Of a stretch of 48,918 bases of DNA, positions 2,923 to 7,050 are shown piece by piece (within the stretch, counting starts at the first letter, position 1; each line of letters starts with the position of its first letter). The notes beneath the pieces were generated by a model. The model searched no databases and was not told the DNA's origin. It worked only from the letters and a program-made list of their open reading frames with translations. The position numbers and the translations under genes are program-made. This DNA comes from Halorubrum saccharovorum DSM 1137 (GTDB lineage: Archaea; Halobacteriota; Halobacteria; Halobacteriales; Haloferacaceae): the NCBI RefSeq assembly GCF_000337915.1, contig NZ_AOJE01000057.1:230216-279133 (forward strand), written 5' to 3'.

Positions 2923-3720
2923 CTACTCCTCGTCGACGAGCCGATACGACAGGGACACGGCGCCGAGCGCGAGCGCGGTCCCGCCGATCACGTCGGTGAG
3001 CCAGTGGATCCCGAGGTACATCGTCGCGATCACCACGCTCGCCGCGAGCCACGCGGCGAGCGGCGTCCACAGCGGGTACTCCCGCCGCGTCAGGACCGCG
3101 AACGTCCCCACGGTCACCGACAGCGACGTGTGCAGCGACGGGAAGACGTTCGTGGGCTCGTTCACCTCTCCCGTCAGCGCCATGAACTCCGGGTTGTGGG
3201 TGAACAGCAGCGAGGTCACCATATCGGGCATGACGTTGCGCGGGCCGTACGCAAACACGACCGTGTACAGCACGAGCCCGATCGCGTAGTTGAGCGCGTA
3301 CGCGACGAGGAGCCGCTTCACCGTCGTCGTCCGCGGCAGCGCCAGGTACGCGAGGAACGGGAACGCGAGCAGGAACACGTACCCGTACACGTACACCGAC
3401 GAGAAGTACATCGTCAGCTGGGGCGAGCCGAACGTCGCCTGGAGCCACGCGACGAAGTTCCCCTCCAACGCGTAGATGGCCCACGTCAGCTGGAGCCCGA
3501 ACAGCTCGGAGACCGTCTGGAGGGAGCTCCGACCGATCGCGCTCGCTATCAGTACCACCACCAGCGCGGCGAGGGGCTTCCGGATCTCCCACAGCCGATC
3601 GCGGAGGTCGTTCCAGAGCCCGTACAGCCGCCGCGGGCGGATGATCGCGACGCTCGCGACGAGCAGGGCGGACCCCACCCACAGCGCGAGCGAACTCACC
3701 ACCGACAGGAGCGGACTCAT
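2923..3720 (-). CDS. PAP2-superfamily membrane phosphatase
   Basis: The 265-aa polytopic protein has about six membrane segments. The signature PAP2 motifs lie in the C-terminal half: FPSLHTSLS (motif 2, with the catalytic His) and GIHWLTDVIGG (motif 3, with the nucleophile His). The layout resembles the Aur1/inositol-phosphotransferase-like branch of PAP2, whose members hydrolyse or transfer phosphate on lipid or polyprenyl substrates at the extracellular membrane face. I chose ATG at 3720 because it overlaps the stop of the upstream lipoprotein gene by 4 nt (ATGA) and begins with the hydrophobic segment MSPLLSVVSSLALWVG. A longer frame upstream is Arg-rich shadow sequence. Coupling to a substrate-binding lipoprotein is unusual. 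Confidence 0.85.
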   Translation of the reverse strand: MSPLLSVVSSLALWVGSALLVASVAIIRPRRLYGLWNDLRDRLWEIRKPLAALVVVLIASAIGRSSLQTVSELFGLQLTWAIYALEGNFVAWLQATFGSPQLTMYFSSVYVYGYVFLLAFPFLAYLALPRTTTVKRLLVAYALNYAIGLVLYTVVFAYGPRNVMPDMVTSLLFTHNPEFMALTGEVNEPTNVFPSLHTSLSVTVGTFAVLTRREYPLWTPLAAWLAASVVIATMYLGIHWLTDVIGGTALALGAVSLSYRLVDEE

Positions 3721-5729
3721 GCGCCCGGCGCGATCAGCCGGCCTTCCTCGTCGAACCGATACCCGGCCTCGCGGAGCCGATCGCGAGCCGTCTCGGCGTC
3801 GAGCGATCCGGGCTCGCCGACGAACGGGTGGACGGGATCCGTCTCGCCGTCCCCCCACTGGAGGTCCGAGGGCACCCACTCCGGAGCGGCGGCGAGCGGC
3901 GAGGCGGCGGCCTCGGCGTACCCGTCGAACGCGATGTCGACGAGGCTCCGCTTGTCGATCAGCGACGCGAGCACCCCGCGGAACCGGGGGTTCGACAGCG
4001 GTGCCCGCCGGGTGTTGTACCCGACGTGATAGAACCCGCCGGACCGCCCCGTGACGAGCCGCGCGTCGGCCTCGCGCCCGATCCGCGGGACGGCGTCCGG
4101 CCCGAGGTTCGAGACGGTCGCGTCCGCGAATCCGTCGCCGACCGCCTGCACCGCGGCGATGTCCGACCCCATCACCTCGATCTCCAGCCGGTCGAACGCC
4201 GGCTTCCCGCGGAACCGCTCGGGGATCCCGGCGAGGGGGTCCATCGCGTCACCGGTCGAGTCGTCTCCGTCGTCCGCGCGCACGAGGAAGTGGTCCGGGT
4301 TGCGCTCGAAGGCGACCGACTCCTCCGGGGACGCCTCGACGAAGCGCACCGGGCCGCTCCCGATCGGGTCCTCGTTGTTCGTCACCACGGCCTCGGTCGT
4401 CTCCGCGTCGACCTCGAAGCCGGCGATCGTCGCCACGTCGGTCCGCTCCTCCCAGATGTGCTTCGGGAGGATCGGAACCTGGAGGGCGCGCACGCCGACC
4501 GCGTCGTTGACGCCGTCGAGCGTCAGTCGGACCGTGATCTCGTCGACGGCGGTCGCCTCGTCCACGGCCGACACCCGACCGCGGAACGTCGGCGTCGGCA
4601 CCGGCGACTCGGTGGTTCCCATCGAGGTGTCCTGGAGGAATTCGTAGGTGAACGCGACGTCTTCGGCCGTCACCGGCTTCCCGTCGTGCCAGTCGACATC
4701 CCGAAGCGATACCTCGATGCCCGAATCCCCGACCCGCTCCCAGCCGGCGGCGAGCCACGGGATAATCTCTCCGTCCTCGACCAGCGCGAGCCGGTCGTAC
4801 AGCAGGGACGTGAACGTGCCGTAGCGCCGGTACTCGGCGGCGATCGGGTTCCAGTTCTGCGTGATGCGCTCGTCGGTCGTCACGAGACGGAGTGTCGCGG
4901 AGTCGCCCTCCTCGTCGCCGCTGTCCGTGAACGGGTTGTCGCCGATCAGTCCGTTAGCGGTGGTCTCGTTGTCACCGGCGGTGGTTTCGTCGTCGCCGGC
5001 GGTGGTTTCGTTGTCACCGGCGGTGGTTTCGTCGTCGCCGGCGGTGGTCTCGCCGGCGGCAGTCCCGTCCCCGGATTCGGTCCCGGTTCCGTCGGCGTCC
5101 CCGTCTCCCGCGTCGACGCGCTCTACGCCGAGCAGCCCACCGACCGACAGCGGCTGACGGTTCGTCCAGTTCTCGAAGCGGTCCTCACGGACCGCCGTGA
5201 GCGGGTCGGGGAACGCGACGACGGTGAACGGCTGTAGCTCACAGAGGGTCCGCTGGAGGTCCTCCACGGCCTCGCGTCGCTCGTCGCCCCCCGTCCGGCG
5301 CTGGCTCGCGAGCAGCTCGTCGGTGCCGTTGATGTCGGTGAATCCGAACGGGTTCTGCCACCCTGACTCGGCGACGAACTGCGAGTGAGTGAACGCGTAC
5401 ATCGCGTCCGGGTCGAACGGCTCCGCCTCCCGGAACTGCCCGACGTACACGTCGAAGTTGTGGTTGATGAGCACCTTCCGGCGGAGGTCGGTGAGCCCGA
5501 GGGTGTTGATCCGGGCATCGATGCCCACCGCGTTCAGATTCTCCGCGAGGTGTCTCGCGATCCGGATCGCGTTGGGGTCCCGGTCGGCGGGCGGGGCGTT
5601 GATCTCCAAGGTCAGCTGCGAGGACCGGTCGCGTCCCGCGATGTTCCGCGTGCGGTCGAGACAGCCGGCGCTCAGGGCCGCGATCCCGACCCCCGCGAGC
5701 GTCTCTCGCCGGCTCACGTGCCGCGCCAT
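3717..5729 (-). CDS. Tat lipoprotein of the SBP_bac_5 family with circularly permuted domains
   Basis: The 670-aa protein starts with a twin-arginine signal (R7-R8) and lipobox LSAGC (C23), so it is exported folded and lipid-anchored outside the cell. SBP_bac_5 proteins bind peptides, nickel or sugars for ABC import. Here residues 38-205 match what is normally the family's C-terminal third: TLEINAPPADRDPNAIRIA, LNAVGIDARI, FDVYVGQF and the closing segment near VAFPDPLTAV. A repeated acidic/Thr linker fills about 206-277. Residues 278-670 match the normal N-terminal two thirds: ATLRLVTTDERITQNWNP, PWLAAGWE, DVDWHDGKPVTAEDVAFTY, and finally YNTRRAPLSNPRFR and LREAGYRF, just where the first segment would usually continue. 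The order is therefore circularly permuted. No permease or ATPase gene is adjacent; the PAP2 gene overlaps its stop by 4 nt. Confidence 0.88.
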   Translation of the reverse strand: MARHVSRRETLAGVGIAALSAGCLDRTRNIAGRDRSSQLTLEINAPPADRDPNAIRIARHLAENLNAVGIDARINTLGLTDLRRKVLINHNFDVYVGQFREAEPFDPDAMYAFTHSQFVAESGWQNPFGFTDINGTDELLASQRRTGGDERREAVEDLQRTLCELQPFTVVAFPDPLTAVREDRFENWTNRQPLSVGGLLGVERVDAGDGDADGTGTESGDGTAAGETTAGDDETTAGDNETTAGDDETTAGDNETTANGLIGDNPFTDSGDEEGDSATLRLVTTDERITQNWNPIAAEYRRYGTFTSLLYDRLALVEDGEIIPWLAAGWERVGDSGIEVSLRDVDWHDGKPVTAEDVAFTYEFLQDTSMGTTESPVPTPTFRGRVSAVDEATAVDEITVRLTLDGVNDAVGVRALQVPILPKHIWEERTDVATIAGFEVDAETTEAVVTNNEDPIGSGPVRFVEASPEESVAFERNPDHFLVRADDGDDSTGDAMDPLAGIPERFRGKPAFDRLEIEVMGSDIAAVQAVGDGFADATVSNLGPDAVPRIGREADARLVTGRSGGFYHVGYNTRRAPLSNPRFRGVLASLIDKRSLVDIAFDGYAEAAASPLAAAPEWVPSDLQWGDGETDPVHPFVGEPGSLDAETARDRLREAGYRFDEEGRLIAPGA
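4957..5060 (-). repeat. 21-bp tandem repeats encoding the GD(D/N)ETTA linker
   Basis: Four 21-bp units (4957-4977, 4978-4998, 4999-5019, 5020-5040) plus a partial fifth encode GD(D/N)ETTA heptapeptides. Units alternate between DD and DN versions, so a 42-bp higher-order repeat is visible. The DN units carry N-E-T sequons. The repeats lie in the linker between the two permuted halves of the lipoprotein and should be prone to copy-number change. Confidence 0.95.
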
Positions 5730-5835: not shown

Positions 5836-7050
5836 TCAGATCACGTCCGCGAGCGGGAGGGCCAGCCCGACGACCCACGCCGCTAGCCCCGCGGCGAGCA
5901 CCGGGCGGTCGGCGGCGGCGCGCCCCACCGCGACGACGCCGAGCGCCGCGAGCAGGGCGACGCGGTGGACGAGGAGGCCGGGCGGCACCGCCACGCCGAG
6001 CGCGGCGAAGTCGATCACGAACCCCGCGCCGAGGCCGACGACGACGCCGAGGAGCGCCGCGCTCGGCTCTGATTCGGGCGAGTGAGCGACGACGAGCGCC
6101 GGGATCCCGACGGCGATGACGAGGTACAGCGGGGCCGCGATGAGCTTCGGCCCGACTCCGGGGTACGCGGTCTCCAGCGCGACTCCGGCCGCCCGGACGC
6201 CGACGATGACGGCGGCGAGCGCGACGCCGAGCACCGCCGCGTCCGCGTGGCGACCCGCCTCCCGCCGGGCTCGATGCGCGAGTTCGAGGGCCGCGGCTCG
6301 GGTCCGGCGCCGGAGCAGCGCCCCCGAGAGCGTCGCCAGCGACGCCAGTTCGATCACCGAGACCCAGCCGTCGCTCCACCCGCCGTCGATGCCGCGGTAC
6401 TCGCGGCTGACCTCGGCGTCGACCGCTCCGTGGATGAACTCGTCTTCGAGCCGGACCGCCGGGTCGTCGATGCCCGGCACCGTGTGGCGGAGCCGGAACC
6501 AGTCGTAGTACTCCTCGTGGGCCTGTACCGCGGTGTAGGCGCCGTCGGGCGACTCGTACGCCCGGAGGTGGTCGCGCACGCCGAGGTACGCGCCGTCGTG
6601 GAGCTCGAACGTCTCCTCCAGCCAGACGCCGCCGTCCGGTCCCTCCACGTAGCTGTAGCGGTCGGAGCTGTGCGCGTCCGCCCAGTCGCGCTCGACGATC
6701 GCCTGTACCTGCTCGGCGTCGGCGGTCGCCGCCGCCTCCGCCGGCTCGGTCTCCTCCCAGTCGGTGCCCGACCGGCCCTCGATCGCCCGTCGCGTCGCCT
6801 CCGCGTCGGCGTGAAAGAGGACGTTGATCGCGAGCGTCCGCCCCTCGACCGAGGTGCTCCGGCTCGTGTACGGCCAGAGCCGGTAGTCGCCCGCGACCGC
6901 GATGAGCGACGCCTCATCGACCCCTGAGGGCTCGGGCTCCTCGACGGTCGGCGGGGGCGCCTCGTCGCCCGCGCCGGCGAAGAACCCGGAGGCCGCGAGG
7001 CCGACGCCGACCGCCACGAGGAGCGCGACGACGACCGTCGCCCGTTTCAT
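5836..7050 (-). CDS. Polytopic membrane protein with large extracytoplasmic N-domain, unknown function
   Basis: The 404-aa product starts MKRATVVVALLVAVGVGLAA, a signal-anchor helix. An acidic soluble domain of about 220 residues follows (motifs VAGDYRLWPYTSRST, INVLFHADAEATRRA, DRYSYVEGPDG, HLRAYESPDGAYTAVQAH and WFRLRHTVPGIDDP). The rest contains about six hydrophobic helices with short Arg-rich cytoplasmic loops. The soluble domain should sit outside the cell, before WVSVIELASLATLSGALL. I do not recognise the family. The start at 7050 is chosen because the helix begins there; the frame upstream is Arg/Ser/Thr-rich shadow. The region between this gene and the SBP gene (5730-5835) holds only a short promoter-sized gap. 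Confidence 0.7.
   Translation of the reverse strand: MKRATVVVALLVAVGVGLAASGFFAGAGDEAPPPTVEEPEPSGVDEASLIAVAGDYRLWPYTSRSTSVEGRTLAINVLFHADAEATRRAIEGRSGTDWEETEPAEAAATADAEQVQAIVERDWADAHSSDRYSYVEGPDGGVWLEETFELHDGAYLGVRDHLRAYESPDGAYTAVQAHEEYYDWFRLRHTVPGIDDPAVRLEDEFIHGAVDAEVSREYRGIDGGWSDGWVSVIELASLATLSGALLRRRTRAAALELAHRARREAGRHADAAVLGVALAAVIVGVRAAGVALETAYPGVGPKLIAAPLYLVIAVGIPALVVAHSPESEPSAALLGVVVGLGAGFVIDFAALGVAVPPGLLVHRVALLAALGVVAVGRAAADRPVLAAGLAAWVVGLALPLADVI

Follow-up and report, generated by a model that had tools for sequence, protein, structure and literature searches.

A circularly permuted SBP_bac_5 lipoprotein encoded beside a PAP2-type phosphatase in haloarchaea, and recurrent permutation in its family

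We analysed a 48,918-nucleotide stretch of the Halorubrum saccharovorum DSM 1137 genome (the window) and found that it encodes a circularly permuted substrate-binding protein (SBP). The protein, a 670-aa Tat-lipoprotein that we call P0001 (3717-5729, minus strand), is a member of the SBP_bac_5 family by descent and permuted in topology. Taken as a whole, the data are probably best explained by a permuted, membrane-tethered SBP that partners a PAP2-type membrane phosphatase rather than serving as part of an importer.

Inverted segment order, seam and linker of P0001

P0001 is read from 670 codons without interruption on the minus strand. A preliminary description of this DNA had recognised the unbroken frame and its Tat/lipobox signal, without stating the strand. 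The signal (residues 1-23, SRRETLAGVGIAALSAGC; 5661-5729, minus strand) has the twin Arg, hydrophobic stretch and lipobox Cys of haloarchaeal Tat lipoproteins, and M1, R7, R8, G22 and C23 are invariant among 37 relatives.

The Pfam profile PF00496 (SBP_bac_5) scores 158.6 bits against P0001, with a curated cut-off of 32.4, and its matches do not follow the canonical N-to-C order. Profile positions 291-364 match residues 44-117 (detected by scanning the N-terminal third alone) and precede positions 1-279, which match residues 321-658. We also aligned a profile of 37 P0001 relatives with one of 35 normal-order members, including Escherichia coli DppA. The N-terminal part (residues 36-205; 5115-5624, minus strand) corresponds to the canonical last third, DppA ~369-535 (98-99% probability, E 2e-14 to 3e-18). 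The C-terminal part (residues 277-670; 3720-4901, minus strand) corresponds to the canonical first two thirds, DppA ~26-372 (100% probability, E 2e-44 to 6e-60), and ends at the seam AGYRFDEEGRLIAPGA. These ranges make the two parts complementary, any overlap being short and confined to the seam. This seam falls at DppA residue ~372, in the turn after a conserved helix ending AGYRF. It had been proposed that the family's last segment comes first, followed by the first and middle segments, and that the join after AGYRF has become the two termini; the inverted profile order and the position of the seam bear this out. The N-terminal part, which might have come from a different family, aligns within SBP_bac_5 as well.

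The old C- and N-termini are bridged by an acidic, repetitive linker (residues 206-276; 4902-5114, minus strand), also described previously. It is 71 residues long, 23 of them D or E, is modelled with low confidence, and contains a 21/42-bp tandem repeat coding TTAGDDETTAGDNE (4957-5052, minus strand).

AlphaFold2 predicted P0001 as one confident globular unit (pLDDT 80, pTM 0.79). The PDB matches listed by Foldseek for this model are all family 5 SBPs and were aligned over only ~410 columns, as expected when a sequential aligner is applied to a permuted chain. The pTM and the many family-5 matches thus point to a two-lobed SBP fold, as judged by sequential alignment of a predicted structure. 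Assignment to the cluster Bc proteins (TpMglB-2) was rejected, because P0001 matched only PF00496 and family-5 structures.

Gene neighbourhood and possible role of P0001

Directly downstream of P0001 lies a gene for a PAP2_3-type membrane phosphatase (265 aa; 2923-3720, minus strand), whose start overlaps the SBP stop at ATGA (3717-3720). The gene upstream (5836-7050, minus strand) has a 404-aa product, predicted to be a membrane protein and to have an ectodomain, for which no Pfam or NCBIfam match was found. We compared the neighbourhoods of 94 permuted SBPs in 79 records of the class Halobacteria, from Halorubrum, Halopenitus, Halorussus, Natrinema, Natrialba, Haloferax, Haloarcula and other genera. 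The homologue search returned the same inverted order in relatives from all 79 independent records. PAP2 is directly downstream of the permuted SBP in 83 of the 94 copies; some of the other 11 are truncated at contig ends or are second tandem copies. The SBP-PAP2 pair is sometimes doubled in tandem in Natrialbales-type genomes, and the upstream membrane protein is a conserved neighbour at some loci only (38 of 94). Plasmids of Haloferax gibbonsii bear the SBP gene, and H. profundi has the SBP as well as PAP2 (L258).

The catalytic residues of PAP2 (His197, His239 and Asp243) are invariant in 37 copies, giving the His...His...Asp set of the family. The folds nearest to its predicted model are inositol phosphorylceramide synthase AUR1, LpxE and PAP2 phosphatases. 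PAP2 therefore resembles AUR1, LpxE and PgpB (PAP2_3) both in this residue set and, according to the model, in nearest fold. We know of no SBP partner for PAP2 members of the AUR1, LpxE or PgpB type. Judging from their conserved gene order and the overlap at ATGA, the SBP and PAP2 very probably form a functional unit.

On two haloarchaeal plasmids, genes for aryl-sulfate sulfotransferases adjoin the SBP-PAP2 pair (L361:1-4924 and L362:1-2186). The SBP copy of Salinigranum rubrum (L362:2956-4747) is annotated in two pieces and is probably broken.

P0001 shares its sequence family, predicted fold and lipoprotein export with the SBP_bac_5 (cluster C) proteins DppA, OppA, AppA, NikA and AccA. It differs from them in its inverted segments, in having no permease or ATPase neighbours and in not conserving the DppA-type Asp408. 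D408 of DppA is the Asp that binds peptide amino termini. The corresponding column is not D in any of 22 sampled members of the P0001 clade. Because this residue is not kept, binding of free peptides in the manner of DppA is unsupported, and we discarded it as a candidate activity.

We envisage P0001 as a membrane-tethered, two-lobed lipoprotein in which the new termini would be found at a surface turn in lobe II and the old termini would be bridged by the disordered acidic linker. Going by the domain boundaries of DppA, the lipid tether would have moved from lobe I to lobe II, where the new N-terminus would lie, and would pull on the other lobe. The two lobes would presumably still come together around a ligand, as they do in other SBPs. 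P0001 would then be an anchored extracytoplasmic binding partner of PAP2, not a feeder of an ABC importer. It may present, hold or sense the phosphorylated lipid of PAP2 or the released head group, and in the P0001 clade the ligand would serve PAP2 chemistry on the external side of the membrane. We propose only tentatively that P0001 acts specifically as the ligand partner of PAP2. The two may form a non-transport pair of SBP and phosphatase, present across the class Halobacteria.

The strongest competing explanation is that P0001 is an ordinary, if permuted, SBP of an ABC importer for which the permease and ATPase genes lie at other loci, with PAP2 freeing the solute from lipids or being merely co-regulated. 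SBP_bac_5 proteins normally feed Dpp/Opp importers, an orphan SBP can serve a distant transporter, and the genome has further Dpp-type permeases (PF00528). Moreover, most other permuted haloarchaeal SBPs lie in complete DppBCDF operons. Since permuted cousins occur in such operons, both elsewhere in these genomes and in Alphaproteobacteria, permutation itself appears compatible with transport. However, no DppB or DppC gene lies within 5 kb of any of the 94 P0001 relatives, and none of them has the arrangement of a Dpp/Opp importer, a gene beside DppB/C permeases and ATPases. In the genome survey described below, 16 of 17 P0001-clade members adjoin PAP2 and 22 of 27 other permutants adjoin permeases. 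All sampled normal-order relatives but one are also beside permeases (a fused tandem gene aside). The P0001 gene probably does not belong to an ABC importer, and we give the importer explanation a real but lesser chance.

P0001 might alternatively be a chemoreceptor-like sensor or an enzyme regulator, informing the upstream membrane protein, PAP2 or both of its ligand state, without delivering substrate. Conservation of the ectodomain protein and the SBP-PAP2 start/stop overlap would suit such a role. Yet no signalling domain was recognised in the upstream protein, and many loci with the SBP-PAP2 pair lack this protein, which makes the regulator unlikely.

That the domain order is an artefact (two half genes fused, or a frame or assembly error) is extremely improbable: a low-complexity linker does separate the parts and GC-rich haloarchaeal assemblies can be faulty, but the order recurs across many genera in independent records, so that it is neither chance nor an assembly fault, the two parts complement each other as thirds of a single family, hardly overlapping and leaving hardly any gap, and the predicted fold is a confident single one.

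Permuted SBP_bac_5 proteins in haloarchaea and their origins

Natural circular permutations are usually regarded as rare, single historical events. From 35 normal-order proteins we made a canonical HMM (489 columns) and a version of it doubled head to tail, to which permuted proteins align in one piece. The survey covered 21 haloarchaeal genomes with 116 SBP_bac_5 proteins, and 44 of these are permuted (43 called automatically and L130 by the doubled HMM, with three further P0001 orthologues left out of the count). A Tat-lipoprotein pattern is present in 41 of these 44. The surveyed permutants have at least five different cut points, some of which are fixed only to within ~10 residues.

In the genome of P0001 itself, four of the five SBP_bac_5 proteins are permuted, with differing seams (P0001, L002, L003 and L005); only L001 has the normal order. 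L005 (G000:C64:12248-16051), L002 (G000:C28) and L003 (G000:C59) have seams unlike that of P0001, and L003 is located in a full Dpp operon.

Some permutants match a normal-order protein at ~50-60% identity with the segments swapped. Residues 328-651 of L005 correspond to 83-406 of the normal-order L164 (61% identity), and residues 85-321 to 409-661 (57% identity). Swapped matches were also found for L087 with L131, L112 and L106 with L045, L088 with L081, L003 with L129, and L002 and L130 with L050. For SBP_bac_1 (PF01547), no reversed pairs in one frame were found in 10 of the surveyed genomes, and we therefore rejected permutation as a general trait of haloarchaeal SBPs.

We built a tree on rotated sequences. 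Permutants are nested in several normal-order clades with support of 100/100, and parsimony requires 8-9 changes. A single origin of all permutants was rejected (AU test p 4e-43; log-likelihood 1805 lower when they are forced into one clade). A conservative count gives at least seven independent origins, with the large P0001 clade taken as one event: this clade, L112/L106, L087/L159/L161, L005, L003/L057, L088 and L002/L157/L130. The seams differ among these seven groups. Monophyly of the large permuted clade holding P0001 has weak support (76/62), and when bacterial sequences are included, normal-order ones mix into this clade, at low support. Permutation has, in our judgement, almost certainly arisen recurrently and independently in SBP_bac_5.

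Duplication or fusion of SBP genes in tandem, followed by trimming, is a plausible but unproven origin. For P0001, an in-frame fusion or tandem duplication with subsequent trimming would be the probable route; our search found no intermediate of its lineage. Three observations are consistent with such a route. A 1292-residue frame (L323:7111-10989, minus strand) consists of two fused normal-order SBP_bac_5 units without transporter neighbours, a possible duplication intermediate. Tandem SBP arrays were found at some surveyed loci. Finally, the linker of P0001 appears to resemble the post-lipobox spacer of a second copy.

Our literature search found no paper describing permuted SBP_bac_5 proteins. 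The nearest precedent is Treponema pallidum Tp0684 (MglB-2; 'Type Ic / Cluster Bc'), a membrane-tethered SBP with a natural circular permutation. It was described as one subclass rather than as a recurrent type, and its authors proposed anchoring as the driver of permutation (PMC4990184). P0001 is likewise permuted and tethered, whereas MglB-2 is a glucose-binding cluster B protein of another family with a different cut.

With at least seven independent permutations, several cut points, some pairs ~50-60% identical and apparently intact operons, how and why proteins permute becomes testable by replication in SBP_bac_5. The replicated events bear on which loops are cut, whether tandem duplicates come beforehand and whether anchor position is a selected trait, and they allow the anchoring idea raised for MglB-2 to be tested. 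A wider scenario is speculative and, on present evidence, rather doubtful: recurrent permutation may be adaptive in tethered SBP_bac_5 proteins by moving the anchor from lobe I to lobe II, and one ancient permuted lineage may have left the importer altogether and come to serve a PAP2-type lipid phosphatase or phosphotransferase as its dedicated subunit for ligand binding.

Permutants outside Halobacteria

An archaeal SBP from outside Halobacteria (L324:6302-8665, plus strand) is cut near the hinge and carries a C-terminal PGF-CTERM anchor. It is located in a DppBCDF operon and has orthologues in three more genomes. In a bacterial survey restricted to plasmids, permutants cut as in P0001 were found in the Alphaproteobacteria Ketogulonicigenium, Neorhizobium, Nitratireductor, Roseomonas and Maritalea. 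A haloarchaea-only origin of the permutation was rejected, because these Alphaproteobacteria carry the same cut. Bacterial controls from Phaeobacter, Shinella, Cytobacillus, Meiothermus and Phyllobacterium have the normal order; an apparent one-piece match in Phyllobacterium was discarded, as it spans two adjacent tandem genes. No relatives of P0001 were found on viral contigs.

Alphaproteobacterial permutants with annotated flanks adjoin ABC transporter genes in intact operons. Proteins of this type (for example, WP_013385786.1 of Ketogulonicigenium vulgare) share the family and the cut region with P0001, at ~29% identity over the aligned part, and differ from it in belonging to full ABC transporter operons. 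They are annotated only as 'ABC transporter substrate-binding protein', with no mention of the permutation in the annotation, and many proteins under this name may be mis-modelled. The permuted SBP_bac_5 proteins at L357, L358, L363, L364 and L365 all carry this kind of ordinary ABC annotation. Genes for M28 peptidases lie beside or near several of the alphaproteobacterial permutants (L357, L363 and L364).
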